DNA from: Celeribacter litoreus
GTDB taxonomy: Bacteria > Pseudomonadota > Alphaproteobacteria > Rhodobacterales > Rhodobacteraceae
DNA length: 64,000 nucleotides
Assembly: GCF_020165855.1 (NCBI RefSeq)
Contig: NZ_JAIUFY010000005.1
Location: forward strand, 731,243-795,242
Reading direction: 5' to 3'
Shown here in pieces: positions 32,551 through 44,324 of the stretch. The notes beneath the pieces were generated by a model, which was given only the letters and a program-made list of their open reading frames with translations, was not told where the DNA came from and made no database searches. Each line of letters begins with the position of its first letter. Within the stretch, counting starts at the first letter, position 1. Both the position numbers and the translations under genes were made by a program.

Positions 32551-33141
32551 ATGCAGATGCCATTTGACGCCCTTAATGATGTCTCTGATGAGGCCCTGCT
32601 CGTTGCTTTTGGCAACGGAGACAGAGAGGCTGCGCGGGTTCTGACCTATCGGTTGACGCCGAGAGTTTTGGGATATGCGGCGCGGATACTCAAGGATCGG
32701 GCAGAGGCCGAGGACGTCGCCCAAGAAGCTATGCTGCGCCTCTGGAAGATTGCGCCGGAATGGCGGCAGGGCGAAGCGAAGGTCACAACATGGCTCTACC
32801 GTGTGGTGACAAACCTGTGCACCGACCGCTTGCGGAAAGCGCGCGGAACGGGACTAGATGAAATTGCGGAGCCGGAGGACGACCGGCCGAGCCAAGAGGC
32901 GGAAATTATGACACGTCAACGTCTGTCCGCTCTTGAAAAGGCGCTGGCAACGTTGCCGGACCGACAACGGCAGGCAGTTGTGATGCGCCATATCGAAGGG
33001 CTTGGAAATCCGGAGATTGCCGAGGCCTTGGACATCAGCGTCGAAGCGGTCGAAAGTTTGACCGCGCGAGGCAAGAGAGCGCTGGCAAAGGCCTTGGCCT
33101 CCGAGCGCGAAAGATTGGGGTTCGAAGATGACGGATCGTGA
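32551..33141 (+). CDS. ECF-type RNA polymerase sigma factor
   Basis: The 196 aa protein has sigma region 2 (LTPRVLGYAARILKDRAEAEDVAQEAMLRLWK, with the core-binding and -10 recognition helices) and region 4 (LPDRQRQAVVMRHIEGLGNPEIAEALDISVEAVESLTARGKRAL, helix-turn-helix for -35). There is no region 1 or 3, so it is an ECF sigma. The next gene starts 14 bases before its end and encodes a membrane protein in the anti-sigma position. The target promoters are unknown. Confidence 0.92.
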   Translation: MQMPFDALNDVSDEALLVAFGNGDREAARVLTYRLTPRVLGYAARILKDRAEAEDVAQEAMLRLWKIAPEWRQGEAKVTTWLYRVVTNLCTDRLRKARGTGLDEIAEPEDDRPSQEAEIMTRQRLSALEKALATLPDRQRQAVVMRHIEGLGNPEIAEALDISVEAVESLTARGKRALAKALASERERLGFEDDGS

Positions 33142-33541
33142 CGAGAAACAGATGAACGAAATGCTAGATGCGCTCTTTGCAGAGGCGCAGCAGACGGTCG
33201 AAACACCGTCCGAGGCATTGATGGCACGTATCCTGAGCGATGCGAACGCGGAAATCGACGCGCGAGACGCGCAAGAGGTTTCGCGACGCGACGCGCAACG
33301 TCCGAAAACCCGTCATCCTTTGATTGCGGCTGCGGTGGCTGCGCTCGGCGGATGGCGTGCCGTTGCGGGCCTCGCAACTGCAGGTGTCACGGGCATCGCC
33401 ATCGGTCTCGGAGCACCAGGAGCGGTCACGAGCCTCGCGACAGGATATGCGGATACGACAAGTGTCTATGATGAGGCCGTAAACGGGTATGGTCTCGATG
33501 ATCTGGTTCCGAGTTTCTATGAACTCGCTGCGGAGGGATGA
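33128..33541 (+). CDS. Putative anti-sigma factor, single membrane segment
   Basis: The 137 aa protein has a soluble N-terminal part of about 75 residues (MNEMLDALFAEAQQTVETPSEALMARILSDA), one membrane segment (VAGLATAGVTGIAIGLGAPGAV) and a short periplasmic tail with GYGLDDLVPSFYELAAEG. The overlap with the sigma gene and the topology suggest an anti-sigma factor. It lacks the HxxxCxxC zinc motif and has no cysteine at all, so it is not a ZAS-type anti-sigma. Relatives are sometimes mislabelled dihydroorotate dehydrogenase. Function is inferred from position. Confidence 0.75.
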   Translation: MTDRDEKQMNEMLDALFAEAQQTVETPSEALMARILSDANAEIDARDAQEVSRRDAQRPKTRHPLIAAAVAALGGWRAVAGLATAGVTGIAIGLGAPGAVTSLATGYADTTSVYDEAVNGYGLDDLVPSFYELAAEG

Positions 33542-33543
33542 TG

Positions 33544-34071
33544 ATGACGGATGAGACGAAGAAAACGGGCATCCGGTGGAGCCGCGTGGTTCTGGTTGGC
33601 TCTTTGGCCCTCAACATCGTGATCCTCGGGATCGTCGGTGGCGCAGCTCTGCGATGGGATGAGGGGCGTGATCGCGCCCGTGAGGTTCAGGTGCGCGATA
33701 TGAGCTTCGGCCCCTTTATGGGCGCCTTCAATCCGGAACAGCGTCGTGATCTTGGCCGCGCGTTCGCAAGGAACGCGGGTGACGCGCGCGCCGCGCGGCA
33801 AGAGGCGCAGGCGCTTTTCGAAGAAATGCTGGATGTCCTGCGGACCGAACCGTTTGACCAGAGCGCATTCGAAGGGCTGCTCTTTGACTTGCAGACCGGT
33901 TTCGCGGACCGGCAGGAGATCGGCACACGTCTGGTGGCCGAGCAAATCTCGGACATGACACCAGAAGCTCGGAGCGCCTATGCCGACCGGCTCGATGAGG
34001 CCCTGAAACGTCCGCCGCGCGCGCCCTCTTTCAAAGGGGACCACAAAGATCACGGGCCGGAAAGAGACTGA
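33544..34071 (+). CDS. Periplasmic heavy-metal sensor (CpxP/Spy-like, metal_resist)
   Basis: The 175 aa protein has an N-terminal membrane anchor or signal (VVLVGSLALNIVILGIVGGAAL) and a helical periplasmic part. Pairs such as FNPEQRRDLGRAFARNAGDARAARQEAQALFEEMLDVLRTEPFDQSAFEGLL have the LTxxQ-like, long-helix pattern of CpxP/CnrX-type metal sensors (heavy-metal resistance family). Three ATGs in a row occur; the third (33544) has the best spacing from GGAGGG, the first is at 33538. It ends the EF-hand/sigma cassette and may be the ligand-sensing partner of the membrane anti-sigma candidate. Confidence 0.82.
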   Translation: MTDETKKTGIRWSRVVLVGSLALNIVILGIVGGAALRWDEGRDRAREVQVRDMSFGPFMGAFNPEQRRDLGRAFARNAGDARAARQEAQALFEEMLDVLRTEPFDQSAFEGLLFDLQTGFADRQEIGTRLVAEQISDMTPEARSAYADRLDEALKRPPRAPSFKGDHKDHGPERD

Positions 34072-34106: not shown

Positions 34107-35492
34107 TTATGCGGCGTAGGGGCCGAGGGTCACTTGATTGCGGCCCTCGGCTTTCGCCACATAGAGCGCGCGATCCGCGACTTCGATCAGGTGAGCGATT
34201 GGGGCGGGCGACGAGTCCGGGAGTGCGTCCCCCATCACCAGACCAATTGAGGCCGACACGGAAACAGGCGTGCCGTCGGGGGCGTGGGCCACAGGAATGG
34301 CGAAGATTTCATTGCGCAGCCGCTCAGCAACGGCGCGGGCCTCCATTAACGTCGTGCAGGGCAAACACACGAGGAATTCTTCGCCGCCGAAACGTGCGAT
34401 GAGATCCATGCCGCGCAGATTGTCACGGAGCCGATGCGCCACCTCGATCAGTACGGCATCTCCGGTGCTGTGTCCGTATCTGTCATTGACGCTTTTGAAA
34501 CGGTCCAGATCGATCAGCATGAGCGCGAAGGGTTGATTTCGTGTCCGTGCCTCGCGCGCGATCCGCTCCAGATGCGGCATCGCATAGCGACGGTTCGATA
34601 GGCCGGTCAGGCTGTCCTGCGTCGCGAGTTTCAGCCCCTCATCGACCGTCCGTTGGAGCATATCGCTTTCCCGCTTGCGCCGAAGCTGCATCCGGAGGCG
34701 GAGCACCATCTCTTCCGGATCGGCGCCGTGTGGGATCAGATCATTCGCTCCGAGATCAAGCGCCATGAGAGCTTCTCGACGATGCCTTTGGTCATGCACC
34801 ACGATGATACCCGCATTCCGCGCGGCCTCACGGGCCCGCAGATCAGAGATCAGGCGCAACCCCTCGCGCCGGCTCGCGCGTGCAGAGATGACATAGACGT
34901 CGGCTGTTTCGCCTTTCGAAACACGCTCGAGCGCGCGATTTGCTTTCTCGAGGATAATTTCATCGTGGATGAGCCCCTTCAGCCCAGCCCGCCACATCAT
35001 CGCCTCTTCGGTATTATGTCCGATGAGCATGATACGACCCGCCGTCTCAAACGCGCGCGGCGCTTCGGAAAAGCCGAGGGCGCGCGCGGTCTCCATCCGG
35101 CGCCGGAGTTCGTCAGACGTCGCGGAGGCACGCACGAGCGCGCGCACACGGGCGGTCAATGTCAGGTCGTCAATCGGTTTGATCAGGAATTCGTCTGCGC
35201 CCGCTTTCAGGGCCGAAATCTTTGCTTCGCTGTCGATGGCGGGGATGATGATGACGACAGGGATATGGGCGGTGACGGGGTTTGATTTCAGACGCGAGCA
35301 GGCCTCCAGACCGCTCATGTCACCGAGCGTCAGATCGAGAATGATGAGGTTCGGGCGCTCGCTCTCGGCGCGCTCAATCACTTCCGCGCCGCTCGCTGCC
35401 TGGCTCACATCATAGAACGCGGCAGCCAGTTTTACCTTCAGAATAATGCGGTTCGTTGGCACATTATCTGCAATGAGGATCCTGCCAGCCAT
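34107..35492 (-). CDS. pleD: PleD-type response regulator diguanylate cyclase (REC-REC-GGDEF)
   Basis: The 461 aa protein makes c-di-GMP when phosphorylated. REC1 (about 1-120) has acidic D9, phospho-acceptor D53 in IILDLTLGDMSG and K105 in FLIKPIDD. REC2 (about 150-270) is degenerate, as usual in PleD. The GGDEF domain (about 295-461) has DLDRFKSVNDRYGHSTGD and the active site GGEEF, with the inhibitory I-site RGMD five residues before it. The Ser/Thr normally following REC1 strand 4 is not apparent (PVVIIIPAID). Start is the ATG behind GGAGAGGA. It is divergent from the DUF3572 gene, a common alphaproteobacterial neighbour. Confidence 0.92.
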   Translation of the reverse strand: MAGRILIADNVPTNRIILKVKLAAAFYDVSQAASGAEVIERAESERPNLIILDLTLGDMSGLEACSRLKSNPVTAHIPVVIIIPAIDSEAKISALKAGADEFLIKPIDDLTLTARVRALVRASATSDELRRRMETARALGFSEAPRAFETAGRIMLIGHNTEEAMMWRAGLKGLIHDEIILEKANRALERVSKGETADVYVISARASRREGLRLISDLRAREAARNAGIIVVHDQRHRREALMALDLGANDLIPHGADPEEMVLRLRMQLRRKRESDMLQRTVDEGLKLATQDSLTGLSNRRYAMPHLERIAREARTRNQPFALMLIDLDRFKSVNDRYGHSTGDAVLIEVAHRLRDNLRGMDLIARFGGEEFLVCLPCTTLMEARAVAERLRNEIFAIPVAHAPDGTPVSVSASIGLVMGDALPDSSPAPIAHLIEVADRALYVAKAEGRNQVTLGPYAA

Positions 35493-35623
35493 TCTGTCCT
35501 CTCCGAAACGGTCGTTCTCTGTTCCCGCCACTGTCAACTTTCGCGTTACGCTGTTGCGTTTGGTTAAGAAACTGGGCCAGAAAGGTTAATAAACTGTTTC
35601 GAAGCACCGAGTGGCCCCCTGAC

Positions 35624-36632: not shown

Positions 36633-36742
36633 CACTCGCTCTGGTTGCGCTTTGGCGGAAATTTCTAGAGCCTTTTGGGAATGTTGGTAATTTTTTAATT
36701 CCATATGCCTACTCCAGTCCTCGGCGAACGGGAGATGGGCAT

Positions 36743-37336
36743 ATGCACGGGATGATAAATCGCGCGATTCAGTGCTTTGTGACGGACACTTACGGCGTCC
36801 AGACCTGGCAACGTGTTACCGACAGCGCAGGGCTCGAGTTTGCCAACTTCGAGCCGATGCTCAATTATCGAGATCAACTGACGCTTGATGTGCTTGGTCA
36901 GGCTGCGCGTGAACTCAAAAAACCGGTCGAGACCTTTTTCGAGGATCTGGGCACCTATCTCGTCTCCCACCCCAACCTTGAAGCCATTCGCAGATTGCTC
37001 CGTTTTGGCGGCGAAAACTTCGTCGAATTTCTCTTCTCCCTAAATGATCTGGAAGGTCGCGCGAAACTCGCTCTGCCGGACCTCGAAGTTCCGTCGCTCA
37101 AGGTTGAGAATCTGAAGGACGGAACCTTTCGCATGACCTGCATGGGCACGATGCCGGGCGTTGGCTACGCCATGGTCGGCGTGATGCGCGCGATGGCAGA
37201 TGACTACGGAGCGTTGGTCTTCCTGGAGCATGCGGGGTGGAAGGATTCCGGCGAGGAGATCATCACCATCAATCTTTTAGAGGCCACCTATTCAGAGGGA
37301 CGCCAATTCGAACTGGCCGGTCGCGCGGTGGGCTGA
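36743..37336 (+). CDS. H-NOX (heme NO-binding) family protein lacking the heme histidine
   Basis: The 197 aa protein starts like an H-NOX domain (MHGMINRAIQCFV, then NFEPMLNYRDQLTLDVL and a helix ending FGGENFVEFLFSLNDL) and has PDLEVPSLKVE. In H-NOX proteins the helix ends L-x-N-L-H, with the proximal heme histidine. Here that residue is Glu104 (codon 37052-37054). The YxSxR heme-propionate motif is also missing; the segment reads FRMTCMGTMPG. It therefore probably does not bind heme normally. The C-terminal extension has AMADDYGALVFLEHAG. Start follows GGGAG. The HNOBA-GGDEF gene starts 3 bases behind it, so the pair is one unit. Confidence 0.85.
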   Translation: MHGMINRAIQCFVTDTYGVQTWQRVTDSAGLEFANFEPMLNYRDQLTLDVLGQAARELKKPVETFFEDLGTYLVSHPNLEAIRRLLRFGGENFVEFLFSLNDLEGRAKLALPDLEVPSLKVENLKDGTFRMTCMGTMPGVGYAMVGVMRAMADDYGALVFLEHAGWKDSGEEIITINLLEATYSEGRQFELAGRAVG

Positions 37337-37339
37337 GCA

Positions 37340-38326
37340 ATGAACAACACGATCCTACAGCCCGAATTTCTCGACACGTTTATGCCGATGCATGTGCTCT
37401 ATGATTCTGAGGGCATAATTCTGCATATCGGGCCGACGTTGGAGAAGATGCGACGCTGCGTGCCGTTCGTGGGGTCTTCTCTCAGCGACATTTTTTCCAT
37501 CCATGATGATGGTCGCGGGACGGGAGAGGGCCCGGTGCCTCACCACGCGAAGCTCTACATCAAATTCAGGACGGGTATCCCGACGCAATTGAAAGGCATG
37601 GCGATGCCTGTCCGGCAGTCCGACCTGAGTGTTTTGAATCTCTCGTTCGGTATCTCCATCGTGGACGCAGTGGCGGATTATCGGTTCACGGCCGGGGATT
37701 TCGCGCACACCGATCTCGCGATCGAGATGCTGTATCTTGTCGAGGCGAAATCTGCAGTCCTTCATGAAACGAAGCAGTTGAACCTGCGTCTTCAAAGCGC
37801 CCGTTTCGCCGCTGAAGAACAGGCGAGCACAGATATGTTGACCGGACTGAGAAACCGGCGCGCGTTTGATCAGGCGTTTGAAGAATTCTTACGCCGTCGC
37901 ACAACGTTCGCGCTCATGCATCTTGATCTTGATTACTTCAAATCCGTGAACGACAGCCTCGGACATGCGGCAGGGGATGCGGTTCTAAGAGAAGTCGCGA
38001 AGATCATGAATGAGGAGACGCGCGAGGAAGATGTCATCGCGAGGATCGGCGGAGATGAATTCGTCTTTCTCTTGAAAAACCTGACGTCGCCAGACCGACT
38101 TCTGAACATGGCCAGGAGATTGATCGCACGCCTTGAAGAGCCGATTCCGTTCCATGATGCGTTCTGCCGGATTTCCGGATCGGTGGGCATCGCCACAACC
38201 GAGCAATACCGCCATCCTACGGCAGAGAAGATGAGTCATGATGCCGATCTGGCGCTTTATAGCTCAAAGCGGGGAGGGCGCGCGCTGGCAACCATGTTTG
38301 ATCCGGAGCTTCATTCCGGCGTTTAG
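37340..38326 (+). CDS. Diguanylate cyclase with HNOBA sensor domain
   Basis: The 328 aa protein has an N-terminal HNOBA (H-NOX-associated, PAS-like) domain (about 1-140: FLDTFMPMHVLYDSEGIILHIGP, then GSSLSDIFSIHDD and LKGMAMPV), a short coiled-coil linker (VEAKSAVLHETKQLNLRLQSARFAAEE), and a GGDEF domain (about 165-328). The active site GGDEF and metal-binding DLDYFKSVNDSLGHAAGD are intact, and the I-site REED lies five residues before GGDEF, so it should make c-di-GMP with product inhibition. HNOBA is the partner domain of H-NOX in soluble guanylate cyclase, so the preceding gene most likely encodes its regulator. Confidence 0.9.
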   Translation: MNNTILQPEFLDTFMPMHVLYDSEGIILHIGPTLEKMRRCVPFVGSSLSDIFSIHDDGRGTGEGPVPHHAKLYIKFRTGIPTQLKGMAMPVRQSDLSVLNLSFGISIVDAVADYRFTAGDFAHTDLAIEMLYLVEAKSAVLHETKQLNLRLQSARFAAEEQASTDMLTGLRNRRAFDQAFEEFLRRRTTFALMHLDLDYFKSVNDSLGHAAGDAVLREVAKIMNEETREEDVIARIGGDEFVFLLKNLTSPDRLLNMARRLIARLEEPIPFHDAFCRISGSVGIATTEQYRHPTAEKMSHDADLALYSSKRGGRALATMFDPELHSGV

Positions 38327-38429
38327 GAGGCCGCCAGTGATGCAGGAAACGGCTGCGCCGAAGCCCGCACATGACAGAAATATTTTTTTTATCGAAAAAC
38401 CGCTTGCGCGTAGGCGCAGCATCTCATAA

Positions 38430-38529
38430 ATACCCGCTCACACCAAGCGCGGTCCGTTCGTCTATCGGTTAGGACGCCAGGTTTTCAACCTGGAAAGAGG
38501 GGTTCGATTCCCCTACGGACTGCCACTTT
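38430..38529 (+). repeat. 100-bp inverted repeat copy 1 (contains tRNA-Glu)
   Basis: This stretch is identical to the reverse complement of 44167-44266. It covers the tRNA-Glu gene, 21 bases in front of it and 4 bases behind. The two copies enclose 5,637 bases with the EEP gene and the ugp operon. Confidence 0.93.
38451..38525 (+). tRNA. tRNA-Glu (TTC), copy 1
   Basis: Acceptor stem GGTCCGT (38451-38457) pairs with ACGGACT (38515-38521) with a first G-U pair, discriminator G, and encoded CCA (38523-38525). The anticodon stem CCAGG/CCTGG encloses TTTTCAA with anticodon TTC. The T arm has GGTTCGATTCC. Confidence 0.96.
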
Positions 38530-38586
38530 CCCCGACATTGAAGTGCTTCCTCTGCTCACAGATGTCCTGTGTGCTTCGTGCCGACC

Positions 38587-43864: not shown

Positions 43865-44166
43865 CAGTATCTCCGGTTTTTCTCATGCCCGTGAACGGGC
43901 GAAGGGTCTGGATTGCATCCGCCCGAGACAAGAAAGCCCAATGGCTTTGAGGCTGTGCCGGGCGACACTGGCGCCCTGATGCCGGAGATATGTGATGGTT
44001 AGGTGACGTTTTTTTATCGGTTAGACAAAACTTGAAAATCTGATCTGACAATCTTTTTCACAGCTGCCCACCTACGCAAGGCGGAGCCGTCCGCCGAAAC
44101 AGCACGAGAAAACGCTCTGCAATTGCTGAGCAATCGAATGGGTATATATCGTATAATTGTAAGGGA
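43865..44166. other. Leader and promoter region of the ugp operon
   Basis: About 300 bases without a protein gene. Two small hairpins lie near ugpB: GCCCG/CGGGC at 43887-43900, and AAAGCC/GGCTTT at 43933-43948, the latter followed on the minus strand by CTTGTC. No clear PhoB box (CTGTCAT-type repeats) is visible. The 5' edge is the tRNA-Glu repeat. Confidence 0.5.
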
Positions 44167-44266
44167 AAAGTGGCAGTCCGTAGGGGAATCGAACCCCTCT
44201 TTCCAGGTTGAAAACCTGGCGTCCTAACCGATAGACGAACGGACCGCGCTTGGTGTGAGCGGGTAT
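44167..44266 (-). repeat. 100-bp inverted repeat copy 2 (contains tRNA-Glu)
   Basis: Reverse complement of 38430-38529 with no mismatch. Beyond it, the copies stay similar for a few bases (CTTTCCC against CTTTTCCC) and then diverge. Confidence 0.93.
44171..44245 (-). tRNA. tRNA-Glu (TTC), copy 2
   Basis: Identical in sequence to the tRNA-Glu at 38451-38525 but on the other strand. Encoded CCA lies at 44171-44173, anticodon TTC. Confidence 0.96.
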
Positions 44267-44324
44267 GTAGAAAAACCCGCGCGCCTCCGCAAGGGGGAAT
44301 CTGCGCGTTTCGAAATATTTTTTG

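Follow-up and report, generated by a model that had tools for sequence, protein, structure and literature searches.

An H-NOX protein without the classical heme-site residues is encoded next to a diguanylate cyclase in Celeribacter litoreus and most of its sampled relatives

We analysed a stretch of 64,000 nucleotides of Celeribacter litoreus (Rhodobacteraceae; contig NZ_JAIUFY010000005.1, positions 731,243 to 795,242), hereafter called the window, and focused on two neighbouring genes that encode an H-NOX protein and a diguanylate cyclase, the type of enzyme that makes cyclic di-GMP (c-di-GMP). A first-pass annotation, made from the letters alone, had placed the two genes three bases apart, and we found both open reading frames at these positions, with the ATG of the cyclase at 37340. 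The H-NOX frame could also start further upstream, at a TTG, which would lengthen the protein. This gene is the single HNOB match in the genome. The features of the pair are the following:

36743 to 37336, plus strand: H-NOX (HNOB) gene, 197 amino acids, ATG start, stop TGA at 37334-37336
36746 to 36748, plus strand: codon 2 of the H-NOX gene, CAC, His2, a residue shared by 207 of the 228 distinct members of the clade (see below)
37052 to 37054, plus strand: codon 104 of the H-NOX gene, GAA, Glu104, where the heme histidine would be
37340 to 38326, plus strand: diguanylate cyclase gene, 328 amino acids, with an HNOBA/PAS-like N-terminal domain and linker (residues ~7-160) and a GGDEF domain (162-314)

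The H-NOX protein matches the Pfam profile HNOB (PF07700) over its full length with 87.5 bits (cut-off 25.5), and thus retains the fold. Its heme site is different. In the phmmer alignment to PDB sequences, Glu104 pairs with His105 of the Nostoc H-NOX, the proximal heme histidine, and the residues Y134, S136 and R138 of the propionate-anchoring YxSxR motif are replaced by C133, G135 and M137. Both substitutions had been proposed in the first-pass annotation. It had also named His76 and a second histidine, numbered 165, as residues that might occupy the proximal position. The alignment column table shows that the latter is in fact His163, and the alignment puts neither His76 nor His163 at that position. 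The earlier list overlooked His2.

The cyclase matches the Pfam GGDEF profile with 142.8 bits. The GGDEF signature (residues 237-241) and the RxxD I-site (228-231), five residues upstream of it, are intact, as previously noted, and the protein is thus predicted to be an active diguanylate cyclase. The label HNOBA given earlier to its N-terminal domain did not stand on the single protein, which scored 14.7 bits with PF07701, under the curated cut-off of 23.4, but it is supported at the level of the family. An HNOBA match (E ≤ 0.1) was found in 22 of 27 members of the cyclase family (best 4.6e-11), and the family profile matched residues 206-382 of the beta-1 subunit of soluble guanylate cyclase, i.e., the HNOBA/PAS and helix region (2.6e-6), as well as the alpha-1 subunit (3.1e-4) and 2p04, a histidine-kinase fragment (5.3e-4). 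Soluble guanylate cyclase, which senses nitric oxide in animals, carries H-NOX and HNOBA modules. Hence, the window pair corresponds to the sensor half of this enzyme split over two chains.

We surveyed 295 genomes drawn from the same GTDB family and found an HNOB match in 221 of them. The H-NOX frame was recovered at all of the first 244 loci, and 27 further loci completed the coverage of the 221 genomes. H-NOX of the window type occurred in 211 of these (185 of 200 genomes plus 26 genomes counted by loci, summed by hand). The first 244 loci together with the window gave 247 aligned rows; before counting, we removed the canonical rows, L002, L003, L062, L176 and a duplicate of the window. The clade of the window protein comprised 217 rows with 212 distinct cores, and 204 were kept once eight with gaps at residue 2 or 104 had been dropped. 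Letters at both residues were available for 24 of the 27 later loci, raising the total to 228 distinct members. Figures on the tree, entropy, volume and position 135 are based on the first 204. The cyclase gene lies downstream of the H-NOX gene in 215 of the 218 non-canonical rows with room for it, the three misses being outside the clade, and in all 26 later-added loci with room. With the first ATG taken as the start, a four-base overlap between the two genes is seen in 123 of 214 cases.

The classical heme histidine is missing from 93% of the distinct clade members. Residue 104 is Pro in 155 of the 228, His in 16 (7%), Glu in 13, Gln in 10, Arg in nine, Ala in eight, Asn in five, Gly and Ser in four each, Thr in two, and Lys and Asp in one each. 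YxSxR was absent from all 228. The canonical heme site has thus truly been lost, and a large clade shares this loss. The 25 rows identified as canonical by their motif have YxSxR in all cases and the proximal histidine in 24. The canonical-type H-NOX of locus L029 keeps YxSxR and has Gln at this position, so that the histidine may also have been lost outside the clade of the window protein.

As outgroups we used seven rows representing six different loci, of which five belong to other alphaproteobacterial families and one to genome G294. All seven have His104 and YxSxR, with Tyr (5) or Gln (2) at residue 2. They are the best five of a class-wide search plus G294; as its query was the clade alignment, this search (matches in 10 of 385 genomes, including five of this family) would largely miss canonical H-NOX from other families. 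Provided that these outgroups are representative, the clade lost His104 and YxSxR and gained His2. Since YxSxR is gone from all members and His104 from 212 of 228, YxSxR was presumably lost first, near the base of the clade, and His104 later and often. On the tree of 204 rows, His104 was lost 25 times if it was never regained, and the minimum is 10 changes.

One of the His104 members allows a comparison with experimental data. The genome of locus L137 has a second contig identical to the Dinoroseobacter shibae plasmid NC_009955 over the 6000 bases compared, and its H-NOX, a member of the clade, retains both His104 and His2 and is devoid of YxSxR. This gene is presumably Dshi_2815, which encodes HNOX and adjoins dgc1. 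The D. shibae H-NOX is reported to be a heme protein that binds nitric oxide (NO) and inhibits Dgc1 in its NO-bound form (PMC7232146, PMC8846402). It shares with the window protein the clade, the gene order, the HNOBA-GGDEF type of partner, the missing YxSxR and the presence of His2, but has His104, with its reported heme and NO binding, where the window protein has Glu104. If L137 is Dshi_2815, then heme binding in this clade does not require YxSxR, and the ancestral state is probably that of the His104 members. Position 135, the site of Ser136, is Trp or His in 13 of the 15 His104 members and in 26 of the 189 others, which hints at a rebuilt heme pocket in the former; this grouping was picked post hoc and without a phylogenetic test, and the later-added L264 has neither residue there.

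The H-NOX genes evolve under strong purifying selection where it could be measured. The ratio of non-synonymous to synonymous substitution rates (dN/dS) was 0.024-0.053 among six Celeribacter genes (15 pairs). The synonymous rate was high in many of these pairs, and the four pairs in which it was below 0.7 gave 0.024-0.048; synonymous sites were saturated in the comparisons with the window gene. The most conserved columns among the 204 sequences are not heme contacts. They include W22, G70, RRLLRFGG (83-90), F96, R106, P117 and the segment from G146 to G156 (GxxRAMADDYG), and helix F retains a conserved face around residue 104. Gly70 is present in 204 of 204 members and Gly146 in 203 of 203; by their position they are probably the published hinge glycines. 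Such a pattern is consistent with selection for the hinge and a partner-binding face rather than for heme.

Pairs of this type are not new, since H-NOX proteins without the histidine, adjoining GGDEF proteins, have already been described. Group 5 H-NOX have the histidine in less than 10% of the cases, Pro in most, no conserved cysteine, and GGDEF neighbours, and the authors ask how such proteins sense anything (Lee-Lopez & Yukl 2022, PMC8738867). The share of His104 in the clade (16/228) agrees with this figure. The window pair has the traits of Group 5, namely the missing proximal histidine, the absence of a conserved cysteine, the retained glycine hinges and the overlapping or adjacent GGDEF gene, although it has Glu where most of the group have Pro. 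We based this assignment on these sequence traits, with two clade loci from Paracoccus (L057, L058) standing in for the published similarity network. Group 5 includes the Pden_3719/Pden_3720 pair of Paracoccus denitrificans, which is of the same family as the window organism. The H-NOX of P. denitrificans is described as lacking the axial histidine, as in Rhodobacter sphaeroides; its hnoX mutant makes less biofilm and its dgcAB mutant more, for which reason it was proposed that H-NOX inhibits DgcA (Kumar & Spiro 2017, PMC5588039).

Given the loss of the canonical heme site and the presence of the cyclase next door in nearly all members with room, the best reading of the window H-NOX is a protein-protein switch without canonical heme. 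More precisely, we favour, with a probability of roughly 55%, an inhibitory partner of the cyclase that has lost its heme ligand and has an input other than canonical NO. The two genes would make the split half of a sensor similar to soluble guanylate cyclase. The H-NOX chain would bind the HNOBA domain of its own cyclase and, to judge from its relatives, may hold the activity of this enzyme down. Because the proximal histidine and the propionate anchor are lost, it would no longer be a canonical His-ligated NO sensor and would probably work without heme, regulating the cyclase allosterically. Its input might be a different ligand that occupies the vacant pocket or, alternatively, the level of H-NOX itself, set by transcription. 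The first-pass annotation had suggested a heme-independent switch of c-di-GMP. The clade-wide loss of the site and the cyclase partner uphold the idea of a switch, but its heme independence is called into question by His2, a candidate ligand, and by the heme reported for the D. shibae protein.

Several observations weigh against the reading that we favour. In a 2025 study of the P. denitrificans hnox deletion, c-di-GMP was below detection, which leaves the inhibition of DgcA without direct support, and its authors still propose NO as the input (PMC12582929). In the available parts of the literature on H-NOX without the histidine, we found no heme spectrum, ligand, complex or cyclase assay. The nirS or nirK genes are present in 8 of 15 genomes with His104 and in 28 of 65 others (p 0.57), so nothing indicates that NO biology was abandoned together with the histidine. 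Helices B and C, reported to contribute to the binding surface for the partner in other H-NOX, vary across the clade (mean entropy 2.5 and 2.4, vs 0.5-1.4 for helices A, D, E, F and G). Finally, the near-invariant His2 could provide a different heme ligation.

This last point leads to a tentative alternative that we find unlikely, in which His2 on helix A still binds heme, on the face away from the classical ligand. The change of residue 2 to His and the loss of YxSxR would have come first, perhaps with a His2/His104 heme, and His104 would have been lost later in most lines, so that NO or redox sensing would persist in a reversed geometry. His2 is present in 207 of the 228 distinct members irrespective of residue 104 (among the first 204, it accompanies Pro104 in 127, Glu104 in 13 and His104 in 13) and in all 28 rows of alignment A1, whereas no outgroup row has it. 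Residue 2 may lie near the heme, because Met1, Val5 and Ile9 of the Nostoc H-NOX are reported to line the gas tunnels leading to it, and the D. shibae protein, with His2 and His104 but no YxSxR, is reported to bind heme. Yet His2 is missing in 21 of the 228 members. Among the 17 of the first 204 without it, 13 have Pro104, with Tyr (4), Leu (3), Gln (3), Asn, Phe or Asp (one each) at residue 2, and neither ligand remains in these 13. Moreover, the propionate anchor is gone, and the role of His2 might be limited to capping helix A or contacting the cyclase. The accessible parts of the H-NOX literature surveyed, in which no search was aimed at His2, do not mention its conservation.

There is little to support the other explanations. 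Glu104 could itself be the heme ligand, as it is fixed throughout the branch of Celeribacter and Pacificibacter (12 of 12 members; support value 99), with GAA or GAG as its codon among the Celeribacter genes. However, relatives with the same surrounding motif have Pro, Ala, Gly, Ser, Gln or Arg there, and we know of no carboxylate ligand to a sensor heme in the H-NOX fold, which makes this improbable. Cysteine-based redox or zinc sensing would resemble the heme-free H-NOX of Vibrio cholerae, which is active in vitro independently of heme; that protein keeps its histidine and senses oxidation by a Cys-zinc site that is absent from the window protein (PMC7108781). The only cysteines of the latter are Cys11 and Cys133, found in 67 and 112 of the 218 rows of a rough clade list in which no other column has a conserved cysteine, in agreement with the Group 5 review (PMC8738867), and we consider such sensing very improbable. 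That the gene is functionless and decaying is hardly credible. Residue 104 takes 12 types in the 228 members, and the relatives L064, L212 and L244 have an H-NOX frame that is split or interrupted by a stop codon, but the low dN/dS, the intact fold and partner, and the many invariant or nearly invariant columns argue against decay.

The region upstream of the H-NOX gene contains a candidate regulatory element:

36682 to 36704, plus strand: TTGG-N7-TTAA, a degenerate relative of the CtrA site TTAA-N7-TTAA, starting 61 bases before the H-NOX start

Of 203 upstream regions of the clade, 178 have their best match to the element TTnR-N3-TTTnTTAA at a start position from -70 to -46, and in 151 this start falls within -65 to -56. 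Because the matrix was built from a manual seed and then trained on the same 203 regions, it is the clustering of the positions rather than the score that counts as evidence. TTAA-N7-TTAA with at most two mismatches occurs in 189 of the 203 regions, against ~29% of regions shuffled in two-base blocks. CtrA is reported to control the HNOX gene of D. shibae and rcc02629 of Rhodobacter capsulatus. The element fits CtrA, which may therefore bind here.

Other features surround the pair. A gene for a PleD-like receiver-receiver-GGDEF protein (34107-35537, minus strand) lies ~1.2 kb upstream of the H-NOX gene, and 57 of 114 clade loci with room have an opposite-strand GGDEF frame within 4.5 kb upstream. 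Genes for a sigma-70-family factor resembling those of extracytoplasmic function, a small protein without a Pfam family and a heavy-metal-resistance-domain protein stand in a row at 32551-34071, adjoining the gene of an EF-hand protein. Two tRNA-Glu(TTC) genes lie within a 134-base inverted repeat (38400-38533 and 44163-44296), 90% complementary, with transporter genes in the 5.6 kb between the copies; recombination could invert this segment. The window H-NOX is 76-79% identical to those of Celeribacter and 64% to the type found in Pacificibacter maritimus and in G260 (L108/L060). The latter genome is listed with the genus of the window organism and carries the H-NOX of P. maritimus, possibly because of a transfer or an issue of genus naming.

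Pairs of H-NOX and cyclase are easily taken for NO sensors, but most distinct members of the clade lack the classical heme histidine. The pair is nevertheless kept, and under strong selection where this was measured. The clade offers a natural series, from members with His104, such as that of D. shibae, to those with Pro or, as in the window, Glu, in which the published question of what such proteins sense can be tested through residues 2 and 104.
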